In this document: piece by piece, positions 32,461 through 46,260 of the stretch
How positions within the stretch are numbered: the first letter of the stretch is position 1
How the letters are laid out: every line of letters starts with the position of its first letter
From: Oceanospirillum beijerinckii DSM 7166
GTDB taxonomy: Bacteria > Pseudomonadota > Gammaproteobacteria > Pseudomonadales > Halomonadaceae
Direction of reading: 5' to 3'
Assembly: GCF_000422425.1 (NCBI RefSeq)
Contig: NZ_AULT01000008.1
Span: forward strand, 62,001-126,000
DNA: 64,000 nucleotides
Notes under the pieces: model-generated
Told to the model about the DNA's origin: nothing
What the model saw: only the letters and a program-made list of their open reading frames with translations
The model's database searches: none
Program-made: the position numbers and the translations under genes

Positions 32461-32549
32461 AGCCTCCAGCCTCCAGCCTCCAGCCTCCAGCCTCCAGCCT
32501 CCAGCCTCCAGCCTCCAGCCTCCAGCCTCCAGCCTCCAGCCTCCAGCCT
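32459..32549. repeat. Thirteen perfect tandem copies of a 7-bp unit at the lon stop codon
   Basis: Thirteen uninterrupted CCAGCCT units (AGGCTGG read in the lon direction) fill 91 bases and end directly against the lon stop codon TAA (32550-32552). A degenerate form of the same heptamer flanks and overlaps the four-helix-bundle gene in the cysDN operon (42077-42104 and 42479-42506). Confidence 0.97.
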
Positions 32550-41158: not shown

Positions 41159-42070
41159 ATGATATCGCCCGAACGCCTGACGCACCTGAAACAGCTGGAA
41201 GCGGAAAGCATCCATATTATTCGGGAAGTTGCCGCAGAGTTTGACAACCCTGTGATGCTGTATTCTGTCGGTAAAGACTCTGCCGTAATGCTGCATCTGG
41301 CTCGTAAAGCTTTCTACCCAGGAACACCGCCGTTTCCACTGATGCACGTGGATACCACCTGGAAGTTCCGTGAAATGATCGAGTTCCGTGACAAGATGGC
41401 GGCAGAGGCCGGTATGGATCTGATCGTGCATACCAACGAAGAAGGTCGGGCGGCGAATATCAACCCATTCGATCACGGCAGCCGTAAGTACACGGACGTG
41501 ATGAAAACTCAGGCTCTGAAGCAGGCATTGAACAAGTACCGCTTTGATGCTGCGTTTGGTGGTGCCCGTCGTGACGAAGAGAAGTCCCGTGCGAAAGAGC
41601 GTGTTTACTCCTTCCGTGACAAATTCCACCGTTGGGACCCTAAAAGTCAGCGTCCTGAGCTGTGGAACCTGTACAACAGCAAGGTGAACAAAGACGAGTC
41701 CATTCGTGTATTCCCGCTGTCCAACTGGACCGAGCTGGATATCTGGCAGTACATCTATCTGGAAGAGATTCCGATTGTACCTCTGTACTACTCAGATAAA
41801 CGTCCTGTGGTTGAGCGTGATGGTACCCTGATCATGGCAGATGATGAGCGTATGCCGCTGGCCGAAGGTGAAGAGCCAGAAATGCGTTCCGTGCGTTTCC
41901 GTACGCTGGGTTGTTACCCGCTGACCGGTGCGGTGGAATCGACCGCAGCGACCTTGCCTGACATTATTCAGGAAATGCTGCTGACCACCACTTCTGAGCG
42001 TCAGGGTCGTGTGATCGACCATGATGGCGCGGGCTCCATGGAGCAGAAGAAGCGCGAAGGTTACTTCTAG
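41159..42070 (+). CDS. cysD: Sulfate adenylyltransferase subunit 2
   Basis: CysD makes adenosine 5'-phosphosulfate from sulfate and ATP, together with the GTPase CysN. The 303-residue protein belongs to the PP-loop family with the ATP-binding [13 protein letters not shown] (about residue 38), [32 protein letters not shown] and ends KKREGYF. Unlike the usual arrangement, where cysN follows after a few bases, 449 bases with another gene lie between them. Confidence 0.97.
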
Positions 42071-42076
42071 CCGGAA

Positions 42077-42104
42077 AGGCTTTAGGCTGGAGGCCTGAGG
42101 CTTG
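42077..42104 (+). repeat. Left heptamer array (4 units) upstream of the four-helix-bundle gene
   Basis: Four contiguous 7-mers: AGGCTTT, AGGCTGG, AGGCCTG, AGGCTTG. They begin six bases after the cysD stop. They match the reverse complement of the right array in 25 of 28 positions. Confidence 0.9.
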
Positions 42105-42120
42105 ACGAAAAGGGTGCCAA

Positions 42121-42510
42121 ATGGATTTTGAGAAGCTAGACGTATGGAAAATGTCCGCCCGATTATCGGCAGATTTATACAAGAACCTGAGAAACCTGAA
42201 CGATTGGGGATTTAAAGATCAGATTACCCGTTCAGGTCTGTCTGTACCCAGTAATATTGCAGAGGGTATGAGCAGAGAAAGTGCAAAAGAAAGACTCAGG
42301 TTCTTAAGCATCGCTAAAGGCTCTTGCGCAGAGCTGAGAACTCAAATTTATATCGGTATCGATATAGGCTATATCGAGAGACAGGCTGGTCAGGACTGGA
42401 TTCAGCAAACCAAACGAATAGCCGCTATGTTATCGGGACTGATGAATAAGATTAAGGTGGAGCTTGAACCTGGTTCGTCCAGCCTCAAGCCTCCAGCCTC
42501 AAGCCTATGA
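42121..42510 (+). CDS. Four-helix-bundle protein (S23/Avd-like, TIGR02436-type)
   Basis: A 129-residue helical protein with the family's FEKLDVWKMSARLSADLYK start, SGLSVPSNIAEGMSR and RFLSIAKGSCAELRTQ motifs. Relatives are encoded in intervening sequences of some 23S rRNA genes, and the accessory protein Avd of diversity-generating retroelements has the same fold; the cellular role of free-standing members is unknown. It lies in the cysD-cysN operon, in the same direction, with AGGG before its ATG. Its last residues (SSLKPPASSL) are encoded by the right heptamer array, so the array is part of the coding region. No reverse transcriptase is nearby. Confidence 0.88.
   Translation: MDFEKLDVWKMSARLSADLYKNLRNLNDWGFKDQITRSGLSVPSNIAEGMSRESAKERLRFLSIAKGSCAELRTQIYIGIDIGYIERQAGQDWIQQTKRIAAMLSGLMNKIKVELEPGSSSLKPPASSL
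42479..42506 (-). repeat. Right heptamer array (4 units), inverted, overlapping the 3' end of the four-helix-bundle gene
   Basis: On the minus strand it reads AGGCTTG, AGGCTGG, AGGCTTG, AGGCTGG. With the left array it makes a 28-bp imperfect inverted repeat around the gene. It ends 13 bases before the cysN ATG, leaving a usable GAGGA ribosome-binding site. Confidence 0.92.
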
Positions 42511-42519
42511 GGACACAAA

Positions 42520-43941
42520 ATGTCTCACCAATCCGACTTGATTGCGGAAGATATTGAAGCGTATCTGAAACAGCACGAACAGAAAGACCTGCTGCGTTTT
42601 ATCACCTGCGGTAGCGTGGATGATGGTAAAAGTACCCTGATTGGCCGCCTGCTGCACGATTCCAAAATGATCTATGAAGATCAGCTGGCTGCGATCAGTA
42701 AAGACAGCAAGAAAAGCGGTACCACTGGTGAAGAAGTGGATCTGGCGCTGCTGGTAGACGGTCTGCAATCCGAGCGTGAGCAGGGTATCACCATCGACGT
42801 GGCATACCGTTATTTCTCTACCGATAAGCGTAAATTTATTATTGCCGACACCCCAGGGCACGAGCAGTACACCCGTAACATGGCGACCGGTGCATCCACT
42901 GCATCACTGGCGATCATCCTGATCGACGCTCGTCATGGTGTACTGACCCAGACCCGTCGTCACAGCTTTATTGTCTCCCTGCTGGGCATCAAACACGTGA
43001 TCGTGGCGGTGAACAAGATGGACCTGGTCGAGTACGGTGAAGAGCGCTTTAACGAGATCGTGGCGGACTATAAAGAGTTTGCCAAAGATCTACGTATTCC
43101 TGACTTCCAGTTTGTACCGGTTTCCGCTCTGAAAGGCGAAAACGTGGTAGAAAACAGCACGCAAATGCCTTGGTACCAGGGTGAGCCGCTGATGAACATT
43201 CTGGAAAACGTTGAAGTTAGCCATGATATCGCACTGGAAGATCTGCGCTTCCCAGTACAGTACGTGAACCGTCCTAACCTGGACTTCCGTGGTTTCTGCG
43301 GCACGGTAGCTGCAGGTGTAGTGCGTAAAGGTCAGCAGATCACAGCGCTGCCATCGGGCAAGACCAGCACCGTTAAATCCATTATCACCTACGAAGGTGA
43401 ACTGGAGCAGGCGCAGGCTGGCTCAGCTATTACGGTGACCCTGAACGACGAGATCGATATCTCCCGTGGCGATGTACTGGTTGAAACCGGTAAAGATGCT
43501 CTGGTCAGCAACTGTTTTAGCGCTCACCTGGTGTGGATGCATGAGCAGCCACTGGAAGTCGGCAAGCAGTACAACTTTAAAGTCGGTACCGATTTCACCA
43601 CCGGTTATGTGACCAGCATTGAACATCAGATCGACGTGAATACCCTAGAAAAATCCAGTACCGATGAGCTGCCACTGAATGGCATCGCACTGGTTACCGT
43701 TGAGCTGACCGAAGCGGTGGTATTTGATCCTTACCAGGACAGCCGCTTCACCGGTAGCTTTATCGTGATCGACCATCTGTCCAATGGCACTATCGGTGCA
43801 GGTATGATCGAAGCCGCTGCTGAGCAAAGCGAGCAAACTGCAGTTGGCCCAGTCAGCGCCTTCGAGCAGGAGCTGAACGCTCTGATTCGTAAGCATTTCC
43901 CGCACTGGGAAGCTAAGGATGTCAGCAAGTTGCTGAAATAA
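42520..43941 (+). CDS. cysN: Sulfate adenylyltransferase subunit 1 (GTPase)
   Basis: CysN drives APS synthesis by CysD through GTP hydrolysis. The 473-residue protein has the EF-Tu-like G motifs [27 protein letters not shown] and NKMDLV, with two beta-barrel domains behind. The CysC kinase fusion seen in some species is absent. TGAGGACACAAA precedes the ATG. The separation from cysD by the four-helix-bundle gene does not alter either frame. Confidence 0.97.
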
Positions 43942-44115: not shown

Positions 44116-45552
44116 ATGCGCTTAACACGATTAAAAATTCAGAACTTTCGTTGTTTTGAGCAGTTTGAATTAGATCTACATCCGAATCTAACCGTATTAA
44201 TTGCACCGAATGGGGCAGGTAAAACGACTCTGTTGGATGCTGCACGGATTGCAGTCTGGCCTTTTGTAAAAGCGTTTGATCTGGGTGGTCAAACGGGTAA
44301 ATCTGCAACTATTCAACCAGATGATGTGAGGCGCTTACCTCTTCAAAGAGGTGTGATGGAGCCTGTTCTGCCCTCGAGTATTGAGGCTTCAGGTTTTTGG
44401 CCAGAACTGAATACCAATACCACTAAGTCAGAGGCATTATTGTTTTCTGAGGCAGATCTGCAATGTGTTTGGCTGCAAACGCGCGAGAAAATTAAAAAGG
44501 GGACTAATACTCTAGGCGATAAAGGAACAAAGGGGCTTACCCAATTAGGTAAAGCCTTCCAAGCCAGTCAATTTAACTCACTTGATTCGATTGCTTTATC
44601 AGAGGCTTCGATAGGCTTTCCGGTGATCTCTTATCTTGGAACTGGTCGCTTGTGGTATCAGGGACGATATAGCTCTCAAGTTAAGGATAAAAAACTAGAA
44701 CAGGATGCCTTTTCCAGAAGTTGGGGTTATAGAGACTGTTTAACTGCCTCATCAGCTTATAAACAGTTCGAAGACTGGTTCGGTTGGATTTATCGTAGCT
44801 ACAGGGAAAAGCAAATTGAGGCACTTGAGCGTAGTACATCAATAGATTCAAACGATCAATGGCTGAAAGATAGTATTGATGTAGTTGTGAAGGCTGTTGA
44901 TGAAGTTGTCGCCCCGATAACCGGTTGGGGGAAAATTGCATATAGTTCTAGCAATCAGCAGCAGATTGTCTTAAGCCATAAAGAACACGGCATAATGCCT
45001 TTAAGTATGTTAAGTGATGGTTTGAGAAACACTATTGTAATGGTTGCAGATATTGCATTTCGTTGTAGTAAGTTAAACCCTCATTTGGGAGCAAGAGCTG
45101 CTTTAGATTCATACGGGGTCATTATGATTGATGAAGTGGATATGTTTCTTCATCCCGAATGGCAACAGCAGATTTTAGGGGCTCTGCGTCGAGCTTTTCC
45201 CAAAATTCAGTTTATCGTTACCACCCATAGTCCTCAGGTTTTAACCACGGTTCCAAAAGAATGTATTCGTCTTATTGATGGCGATCGAGCGGTTGAACCT
45301 TCAGTTCATACTTTGGGAGAGGAAAGCAGGACCGTTTTGGAAGATGTAATGCACGTATCCTCTAGGCCTAGAGATGAATATTCAGATCTGTTGACTCAGT
45401 ACCTAAAGAAGATTAACCGAGGTGACATTGATAGCACTGAAGTCTTGCAGATGAGAGCTGGTTTAGAGCGTCATTATGGTGCAAATCATGATCAGTTACA
45501 GCTCGCAAATACAAGAATTAATTACTGGCGGGCAGTGCGTCATACGGAATAG
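44116..45552 (+). CDS. ptuA: AAA ATPase of a Septu-like defence pair (PtuA-like)
   Basis: A 478-residue RecF/OLD-like ATPase. It begins LTRLKIQNFRCFEQFEL, with Walker A APNGAGKTT (residues 30-38), an ABC-type signature LSDGLRN (about 299), Walker B VIMIDEVDMFLHP (about 335) and a HSPQ switch (about 369). A long helical insert separates the two ATPase halves. It is followed after six bases by a TIGR02646-type HNH gene; ATPase plus this HNH is the gene content of Septu (PtuAB) and of the effector part of some retrons. No reverse transcriptase or retron RNA is visible, so I call it Septu-like. Anti-phage activity is inference. Confidence 0.85.
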   Translation: MRLTRLKIQNFRCFEQFELDLHPNLTVLIAPNGAGKTTLLDAARIAVWPFVKAFDLGGQTGKSATIQPDDVRRLPLQRGVMEPVLPSSIEASGFWPELNTNTTKSEALLFSEADLQCVWLQTREKIKKGTNTLGDKGTKGLTQLGKAFQASQFNSLDSIALSEASIGFPVISYLGTGRLWYQGRYSSQVKDKKLEQDAFSRSWGYRDCLTASSAYKQFEDWFGWIYRSYREKQIEALERSTSIDSNDQWLKDSIDVVVKAVDEVVAPITGWGKIAYSSSNQQQIVLSHKEHGIMPLSMLSDGLRNTIVMVADIAFRCSKLNPHLGARAALDSYGVIMIDEVDMFLHPEWQQQILGALRRAFPKIQFIVTTHSPQVLTTVPKECIRLIDGDRAVEPSVHTLGEESRTVLEDVMHVSSRPRDEYSDLLTQYLKKINRGDIDSTEVLQMRAGLERHYGANHDQLQLANTRINYWRAVRHTE

Positions 45553-45558
45553 TCGTTA

Positions 45559-46260
45559 ATGAAGTATTTTTCTCATGAAGATCAGGCACCACTGCTATTA
45601 GGAAAGAGGCAGTTAAAACCTGTTGATAATCCTGGCGGAGCTTGGCGTAACTACAAAAAGGGAGAAAGGGGACGTGGGAGAGTGCATGAGTTAACCACTA
45701 ACCTGCTGGTATGTCAGAAGTCACTTTGTGCGTATTGTGAGATCAGTCTACTACACCCGCAGTTGGGTTTTCATATCGAACATATTCTTTCCAAATCACT
45801 AAACCCAGAGCTTACTTTCGAATATAAGAATCTAATGCTGTCGTGTTTTAAAGGTGGTGGTGAGGTTCCTGCCTCAGAAGAAGACCCATATCCTGTCAGC
45901 TGCGGTCACGCACTACTCAAATCAAGCAATGAGTTCGATGAAGCTCTGTTTATCAGGCCAACGGAAGCTGATTGTGAGCGTTATTTTTTCTATGAGCTTG
46001 ATGGGGAGATTGTTCCTCATGATAATCTAAATGCTCAGGAATCAGAGCGAGCGCAGCACACGATTGATGTTTTGAACCTGAACTGCCGACGCTTAAAGCG
46101 CTTAAGGGGGGATGTCATTGATCAACTATCTCGGTTGAGTGCAGAGTTGGTTAAGCAGCCAGAGCAATTACAGTTCTTTATTCAACAAGAGTTGAGTGCT
46201 CGAGAAGGTGCGCTGGTTTCATTTTGGACAACCAGAAAACAGCTTCTCATTCCTGATTAA
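45559..46260 (+). CDS. ptuB: HNH nuclease of a Septu-like defence pair (PtuB-like, TIGR02646)
   Basis: A 233-residue protein with an HNH/McrA-like zinc centre: CAYC at residues 57-60, FHIEHILSKS (His72, His75), then NLMLSC (Asn91, Cys96). A DVLNLNC segment lies in the C-terminal third, as in TIGR02646 proteins. The family appears in Septu systems and retron effectors and is thought to cut nucleic acid under control of the ATPase. The six-base gap to the ATPase gene indicates one transcript. Base composition and codon use look less biased than in the housekeeping genes around it, which fits transfer. Confidence 0.87.
   Translation: MKYFSHEDQAPLLLGKRQLKPVDNPGGAWRNYKKGERGRGRVHELTTNLLVCQKSLCAYCEISLLHPQLGFHIEHILSKSLNPELTFEYKNLMLSCFKGGGEVPASEEDPYPVSCGHALLKSSNEFDEALFIRPTEADCERYFFYELDGEIVPHDNLNAQESERAQHTIDVLNLNCRRLKRLRGDVIDQLSRLSAELVKQPEQLQFFIQQELSAREGALVSFWTTRKQLLIPD

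Follow-up and report, generated by a model that had tools for sequence, protein, structure and literature searches.

The locus between cysD and cysN in Oceanospirillum beijerinckii DSM 7166 raises the question of why a short gene for a four-helix-bundle protein should lie there, enclosed by two heptamer arrays in inverted orientation. The window (the whole stretch of 64,000 nucleotides analyzed here) contains this unit, both host genes, and a solitary array beside lon:

41159-42070, forward strand: cysD, the upstream host gene, full length by CysD models
42077-42506, forward strand: the whole element, 430 bp, with a terminal RNA stem by fold prediction
42077-42104, forward strand: left heptamer array, four AGGCNNN units from sequence and pattern matches, with its complementary arm reaching 42109
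42121-42510, forward strand: the four-helix-bundle gene (PF05635/TIGR02436/NF008912, "IVP" or S23p), 129 aa, from profile matches and 2gsc
42479-42506, reverse strand: right heptamer array, four inverted units, with its complementary arm at 42474-42506, from sequence and repeat search
42520-43941, forward strand: cysN, the downstream host gene, full length by CysN models
32462-32549, reverse strand: solo AGGCTGG array of 13 units without an IVP gene, from pattern search, one of 14 dispersed in this genome
32550-34970, reverse strand: lon (Pfam), its stop codon directly before the solo array

The answer favored here is that the 430-bp unit is probably an IVS-type element with heptamer-array ends and a REP-RAYT-like logic, in which the IVP protein would bind its arrays and spread them. 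The original prediction, made from the sequence of the window, had described four AGGCNNN heptamers on the left and four inverted ones on the right, and this description is exact: the left array reads AGGCTTT AGGCTGG AGGCCTG AGGCTTG, the right array, in reverse complement, AGGCTTG AGGCTGG AGGCTTG AGGCTGG, and the two are identical at 25 of 28 positions as an inverted repeat in heptamer register. A repeat search delimits arms of 33 nt (42077-42109 and 42474-42506) that are 91% complementary. The best 21-nt inverted match between the flanks is 19/21, and as none of the 81 flanks shuffled from the homologue set described below attained 17/21, the match is not due to chance. The predicted identity of the gene and the intactness of its neighbors were likewise confirmed, with profile matches to TIGR02436 (E 2.2e-31), NF008912 (E 4.6e-53), and PF05635 (E 1.7e-31) for the IVP, and full-length matches for both cysD and cysN. 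The closest solved structure is 2gsc (XCC0516; E 3.5e-17), a homopentamer of four-helix bundles according to the available part of PMC4990558.

The unit is fitted tightly between its neighbors. Six nucleotides separate the cysD stop codon from the left array, and the right array is translated as the C-terminal tail of the IVP, whose stop codon (42508-42510) sits past the array and overlaps the presumed ribosome-binding site of cysN. The RNA spanning 42060-42530 is predicted to fold at -163.7 kcal/mol (z -5.5; none of 100 shuffles equally low), with the arms forming a roughly 30-bp terminal stem that encloses the IVP gene. PF05635 alone was matched in a domain scan of the IVP protein, which gave no IS200/IS605-like tyrosine transposase of the kind required for assignment to REP-RAYT. 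The absence of a transposase, integrase, or reverse transcriptase from the unit and the lack of an identified target-site duplication count against the element reading; since a profile search of the genome also found PF05635 in single copy, transposition itself goes unseen here. The element's own heptamer units are degenerate. Among the 10 neighboring open reading frames scanned between 32.5 and 51.3 kb, none matched a reverse transcriptase. As a separate observation, a PtuA/PtuB-like pair follows directly 3' of cysN (44116-46260, forward strand; PADLOC E 3.6e-150 and 5.6e-49), a candidate Septu-type anti-phage defense.

Homologues were sought in a collection with one genome per species (84,980 species), and the best 80 of at least 552 confirmed relatives were taken; the best 79 distinct loci among these relatives, together with the window, provide 82 PF05635 genes of more than 50% identity. 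At period 7, the mean of the best 21-nt self-match beside these genes is 0.744 for left flanks and 0.816 for right flanks, compared with 0.42 to 0.54 at other periods (except 14, a multiple of 7), 0.47 in shuffled left flanks, and 0.492 in windows 1.3 to 1.7 kb off. The left flank matches the reverse-complemented right flank at 17/21 or better in 77% of 81 loci, as opposed to 16% in direct orientation, 26% with the right flank of another locus, and none after shuffling. Whole-flank duplex energies are -74.3 for own, -56.9 for mismatched, and -56.8 for shuffled pairs, the own pairing being stronger in 68 of 80 loci, with a separation that is only modest because the flank windows are long.

The original prediction had tied its mobile-unit idea to the presence of such arrays around other TIGR02436 genes, and they are indeed widespread. 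A period-7 array occurs on at least one side of 122 of 135 PF05635 loci versus 40 of 394 shifted control windows (74/81 for homologues plus window, 13/15 for relatives, 25/29 in a phylum survey, and 10/10 on plasmids), an inverted arm of at least 17/21 at 102 of 135, and an array combined with an inverted arm of at least 16/21 at 108 of 135 versus 2 of 394 controls. These 135 loci represent 130 distinct places, five having been counted twice across the closest-homologue and relative sets (L035=L126, L036=L145, L037=L112, L038=L092, and L042=L128, with identical coding stretches); L113 and L039, which are one place, were dropped for their short flanks, and L147 and L149 have a common coding stretch in different species. 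The phylum-survey set consists of 29 new loci from the best-scoring places, not a random draw, and the plasmid set of 10 of 21 plasmid records. The 13 loci without a period-7 array by this test, including L046 with a PF05635 match below the cut-off, count against the element reading; by eye, some elements carry 8-nt units (L098 and L276). Thirty loci from one further family, again best-scoring places, passed the period test in 25 cases and carry an inverted arm of at least 17/21 in 29, with the shifted control windows belonging to the 135-locus survey alone. A further set of 20 loci, of which L282 and L283 are also among the 30 and L291 is L150 again, has an array on either side in 17 and an inverted arm of at least 17/21 in 14. 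Comparison across loci shows that inverted array ends are a general feature of PF05635 genes.

The heptamers themselves vary by locus and include AGGCTGG, AAGCTGG/AAGCTTG, GTAAGCT, GGAAGAG, TCAGCCG, AAGGTTC, GTAGGCA, GGGACCC, and others, which we refer to as dialects. A scan of the relatives' IVP loci for the AGGC core gave no arrays of note, a false negative given that their heptamers have other cores. Among 50 cysD-cysN loci, the distance between heptamers correlates with the distance between IVP proteins after control for cysD distance (partial r 0.549, a value reached in 0 of 2000 permutations), whereas its correlation with cysD distance given IVP distance is -0.099. In the 35 cases in which the closest IVP and the closest cysD come from separate loci, the dialect is closer to that of the IVP neighbor in 28. 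The AGGCTGG dialect of the window is nearest to Pseudomonadaceae loci and one gammaproteobacterial MAG, and not to other Halomonadaceae. By this comparison, the dialect goes with the IVP protein, not with the host. The IVP and its arrays are physically linked and travel as a unit, which explains part of the concordance, so that concordance alone is no proof of binding.

We observe that 56 of the 82 PF05635 genes (window plus best 79 loci of at least 552 relatives) lie adjacent to cysD or cysN, in Halomonadaceae, Pseudomonadaceae, Shewanella, Colwellia, Psychromonas, Oceanimonas, Halothiobacillus, and other hosts. The remaining 26 are found elsewhere, some of them, by eye, beside trmJ, gmd, or sugar-nucleotide genes, and on a quick tree of the set, built from few IVP columns, the cysD-cysN label changes 5 times versus 22 when shuffled. 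In annotated plasmid records, a PF05635 gene occurs twice between cas6 and cas4 and once between ribonucleotide reductase genes. The two cas cases are cyanobacterial plasmids from different genera (L172 and L175), where the operons are CRISPR type I-D and the array dialects differ. In Azospirillum lipoferum the gene lies inside a 23S rRNA gene, an RNA-family scan of 40 further loci placed only L044 (genome G063) in such a position, and heptamer arrays flank both of these IVPs. No IVP homologue was found in the phage collection at E 1e-3. In Psychrosphaera (L098 and L101), two PF05635 genes lie a few kilobases apart, one of them beside cysN, with 8-nt units around L098_4001. In many occupied loci (e.g., L092, L096, L158, and L168), the left array follows a hairpin that includes the cysD stop codon. 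Perfect stems of at least 7 bp occur no more than 45 nt from the end of cysD at 32 of 53 occupied versus 0 of 25 empty junctions, a count to which array units may contribute in the occupied ones; the hairpin could belong to either the element or its target.

The comparison of cysD-cysN junctions proposed in the original prediction gave empty sites in the sister species. A profile search matched PF05635 in none of five genomes of the same genus, and in all five cysD is followed by cysN without an IVP gene. By eye, worn right-array-like sequence precedes cysN in three of these sister junctions (L063, L064, and L065; clearest in L064), such that some of the sister absences may be losses and presence possibly ancestral. 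The L064 junction has two heptamers before cysN that match the right end of the window's element and are likely a remnant; it also contains what we take to be a REP-like sequence.

Occupied and cleanly empty sites stand side by side in another genus, in which an element of the GTAGGCA dialect was compared across 61 genomes, 30 of them analyzed on a tree and alignment. A whole-locus match marks 18 of the 61 as occupied, with 457 to 602 bp between the anchors. Of the other 43, 12 were read: 10 are empty, with 55 to 60 bp between the anchors, L271 carries at the same stop codon an IVP-less hairpin of two fused inverted arrays of another dialect, and L276 carries there a decayed gene between arrays of 8-nt units. 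The insertion measures about 400 to 545 bp and has the IVP as its sole gene; by eye, it starts where the upstream gene has its stop codon and leaves the start region of the next gene in place. A reverse transcriptase or transposase inside the unit was considered and rejected, since the empty sites leave room for the IVP gene only. On a quick flank tree of the 30 genomes, occupancy requires 8 changes, at least 5 of them forced by well-supported branches, and is clustered hardly above shuffled labels (84 of 500 as low). Comparing the 18 intact genes in pairs gives 1576, 961, and 5598 differences at first, second, and third codon positions (5598 of 8135 at the third), so that the IVP protein is under purifying selection in this genus. 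Comparison of these sites shows a unit that is present or absent as a whole and with no other gene. Both checks thus support the original view of a small mobile unit rather than a normal operon member; what does not hold is any peculiarity of the cysD-cysN site in this genome, given its use by 56 of the 82 genes.

Arrays without the gene are also dispersed in the window's genome (G000), which has 14 more of them, with 5 to 13 near-perfect units each (12 AGGCTGG and 2 AGGCTAG) and none with a PF05635 gene. A four-unit AGGCT pattern searched in 58 genomes has 73 matches in this genome, one of them the element's own right array, and none in the five sisters, the sole other genome with matches being G023, with 6; the near-perfect units and their absence from the sisters suggest recent array formation in the window's genome. 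AAGCT arrays occur in 11 of the 58 genomes, and the reversed-pattern control matches 10 of 58, partly at least because AAGCTCG arrays contain its letters. Among relatives in the 58 genomes, arrays are present in 6 of 9 IVP-bearing versus 6 of 49 IVP-free genomes (P = 0.0014; G076, with a PF05635 match below the cut-off, counted as IVP-free), and the genera of the six exceptions (g2, g4, g10, and g11) each contain an IVP-bearing species. Against the element reading stand these six and G009, a misfit with many AAGCT arrays and IVP flanks of the GGAAGAG type.

Of the 99 genomes of a second family (f43, presumably Xanthomonadaceae from its GGGAATC unit), 44 encode a PF05635 protein and 26 contain GGGAATC arrays. 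These arrays are found in 22 of 44 IVP-bearing versus 4 of 55 IVP-free genomes (P = 1.8e-6), and 837 of 860 GGGAATC matches fall in IVP-bearing genomes; the 22 IVP-bearing genomes without and the 4 IVP-free genomes with such arrays are exceptions that count against the element reading. IVP flanks contain GGGA[AT]TC in 9 of 16 array-bearing versus 3 of 14 array-free genomes, a borderline contrast (P = 0.05 and 0.07); flank and dispersed dialects therefore agree unevenly, here as in G009, which also counts against the element reading. GGGACCC arrays had been predicted beforehand for G494, G522, and G477, and were found in G494 (14 matches, one at its own IVP) and G522 (10 matches), the IVP flanks of both being GGGACCC, with one match in G447. 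The prediction failed for G477, in which GGGACCC arrays are absent and the flanks are one letter off (GGGACCG/GGGACCA). None of the 26 GGGAATC genomes has GGGACCC arrays, and two of the 26 are congeners of G522.

Some dispersed copies resemble elements that lack their gene. In G522 and G494, inverted GGGTCCC units lie no more than 250 nt away from 14 of 18 GGGACCC arrays, without an IVP (the pairs at L333 and L335 counted from both ends, L343 left out). In Halomonadaceae-type genomes, several dispersed copies look by eye like a left array, a hairpin spacer, and an inverted right array; by count, an inverted partner accompanies 5 of 29 dispersed arrays there at 17/21 or better and 16 of 29 at 16/21 or better, and 0 of 14 in the window's genome. 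Comparison across genomes shows dispersed arrays mostly where an IVP is encoded, in part as inverted pairs without the gene. As to their position, the array starts -2 to 20 nt past the stop codon of a same-orientation open reading frame in 11 of 14 cases in the window's genome, with 1 of 14 antisense. In other genomes, the bias is weaker (16/32 sense versus 11/32 antisense) and, in a second count, nonsignificant (16/41 versus 10/41), so that it is clear in the window's genome only; distance limits were -10 to 40 nt and -20 to 50 nt in the two counts, with a crude open-frame caller. No common function is obvious by eye among the genes beside dispersed arrays, and the junction of the lon-side solo array is unreadable in sister genomes owing to contig ends and low identity.

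In the reading that we favor, the unit would be a selfish element consisting of one IVP/S23p gene, from a pentamer-forming family, between two inverted 7-nt arrays. Placed within an operon and behind a stop codon (here that of cysD), the unit would allow both neighbors to remain expressed. Pairing of the arrays in the transcript is predicted to yield a stem whose loop contains the gene, like that of the 23S rRNA IVS. The IVP may bind its own heptamers, a ring-shaped oligomer facing sites spaced at 7 nt, and may establish, spread, or protect arrays in trans, as proposed for RAYT proteins acting on REPs; copies without an IVP would then be its nonautonomous satellites. Copying could proceed through an RNA intermediate, a single-stranded DNA hairpin, or repeat synthesis by host enzymes, the RNA-linked route being our guess from the sense-orientation arrays after stop codons in the window's genome, and spread to the same site between related cells could be plain homologous recombination in the conserved flanks. 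A wider claim, which we hold tentatively and at a little below even chances, is that PF05635 constitutes a transposase-free mobile class whose ring protein specifies 7-nt arrays and spreads them, which would explain many dispersed heptamers and make the 23S rRNA IVS one particular insertion site. Equally tentative is its extension to arrays after stop codons, solo or as inverted mini-elements, that would cover the repeats of Xanthomonas, Nostoc, and Beggiatoaceae. Two findings weigh on both the favored and the wider reading: fewer clear Halomonadaceae-type mini-elements by count than by eye, and a flank contrast in f43 that is only borderline.

The strongest rival, compatible with the favored reading and in our judgment rather unlikely on its own, is a posttranscriptional regulon in which the IVP is an RNA-binding regulator and the arrays in 3' untranslated regions and operon junctions are its binding sites. 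TRAP, with its multivalent RNA binding, provides a model for such a protein, and at the IVP gene itself the inverted arrays would, at the same low probability, form an autoregulatory stem, possibly cut by RNase III. The long predicted RNA stem around the gene, the sense orientation of arrays after stop codons in the window's genome, and purifying selection on the protein all agree with a regulon, as do the Xanthomonas heptamers, similarly placed and transcribed according to the available part of PMC4692102. A regulon is at odds, however, with a unit that has come and gone as a whole, more than once, at a single site, with insertions into 23S rRNA genes, into cas operons, and at ribonucleotide reductase loci, with dialects that differ between species of one genus, and with array-neighbor genes that by eye have no obvious common function. 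Somewhat doubtful, and also compatible with the element reading, is an old relic in this genus, that is, an ancestral element lost by the sisters and no longer moving today. The array-like sequence seen by eye before cysN in L063, L064, and L065, the single IVP copy, and the degenerate heptamers of the element fit this history, whereas the 12 AGGCTGG and 2 AGGCTAG arrays with near-perfect units, in a pattern absent from the sisters, do not.

Far less probable than either is a vertically inherited gene of the cysDN operon, with arrays from polymerase slippage. The concentration of 56 of 82 genes at cysD-cysN, the 5 label changes versus 22 shuffled, and an array copy number that varies widely by eye among species would be in keeping with it, but 26 of 82 genes lie elsewhere, and slippage makes no inverted pairs around one gene family (108/135 versus 2/394), accounts neither for a dialect that tracks the IVP from host to host nor for copies of one unit at many loci, chiefly in IVP-bearing genomes. 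The element reading joins two matters in one comparison and makes both testable: S23p/IVP proteins without a known function and dispersed heptamers without a known source. It offers as handles an identified protein, a candidate cognate sequence per genome, and natural dialect differences within one genus, and if the IVP does make or spread arrays, this would amount to DNA mobility without a recognized transposase.

The original prediction was unaware of any published element built in this way; in print, the available part of PMC4990558 describes one 23S rRNA IVS, of Coxiella burnetii, with three tandem GACAGAT heptamers upstream of its S23p gene. According to the same part, RNase III cuts the stem of the 23S rRNA IVS, and S23p proteins have no known function and are probably not made. 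The window's unit resembles such an IVS in its S23p/PF05635 protein, its size of about 430 nt, and terminal inverted repeats that close a predicted stem. It differs in lying between the protein genes cysD and cysN instead of in 23S rRNA, where two of its array-ended relatives do sit, as IVS. Unlike what that part of the source describes, arrays here are on both sides and dispersed in genomes, and related IVPs are under purifying selection in one genus, in contrast to a protein that is probably not made.

Dispersed heptamers have been published without this protein. As far as the available parts go, GGGAATC arrays in Xanthomonas and GGGGA(T/C)T arrays in Nostoc lie near stop codons, are transcribed, and are not tied to known mobile elements (PMC4692102), TAACTGA arrays occur in Beggiatoaceae, cyanobacteria, and Bacteroidetes (PMC4679880), and heptamer-derived satellites are noted (PMC6749651). 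The arrays described here are like those of the first two sources in being tandem, 7 nt, intergenic, near start or stop codons, and patchy across phyla. PMC4679880 speculates, in its available part, that the mobile component is a repeat-binding protein yet to be identified, and PF05635 is a candidate for this protein behind the published dispersed heptamers. The term S23 is absent from the main texts of PMC4692102 and PMC4679880, and in the literature searched, in which few subscription papers were covered, no paper was found that ties heptamer arrays to PF05635 in general. Avd of diversity-generating retroelements has a fold related to PF05635 (4DWL compared with 2GSC; PMC10053308, in the part available); in contrast to such a retroelement, the 10 neighboring open reading frames scanned gave no reverse transcriptase, and the unit absent from empty sites holds the IVP only.

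The closest parallel in logic is REP/RAYT, as presented in the available part of PMC2817692. In both, a gene lies between two inverted repeats whose type is matched to the protein, the repeats are commoner genome-wide when the gene is present, and inverted doublets occur without the gene. RAYT, however, is a tyrosine transposase and REPs are palindromic, whereas here the protein is a four-helix bundle for which no catalytic activity is known and the repeats are tandem 7-nt arrays. Beyond what we found in print, the present comparison of sequences would add heptamer-array ends as a rule, sites in protein operons, and dispersed arrays that are commoner in IVP-bearing genomes.
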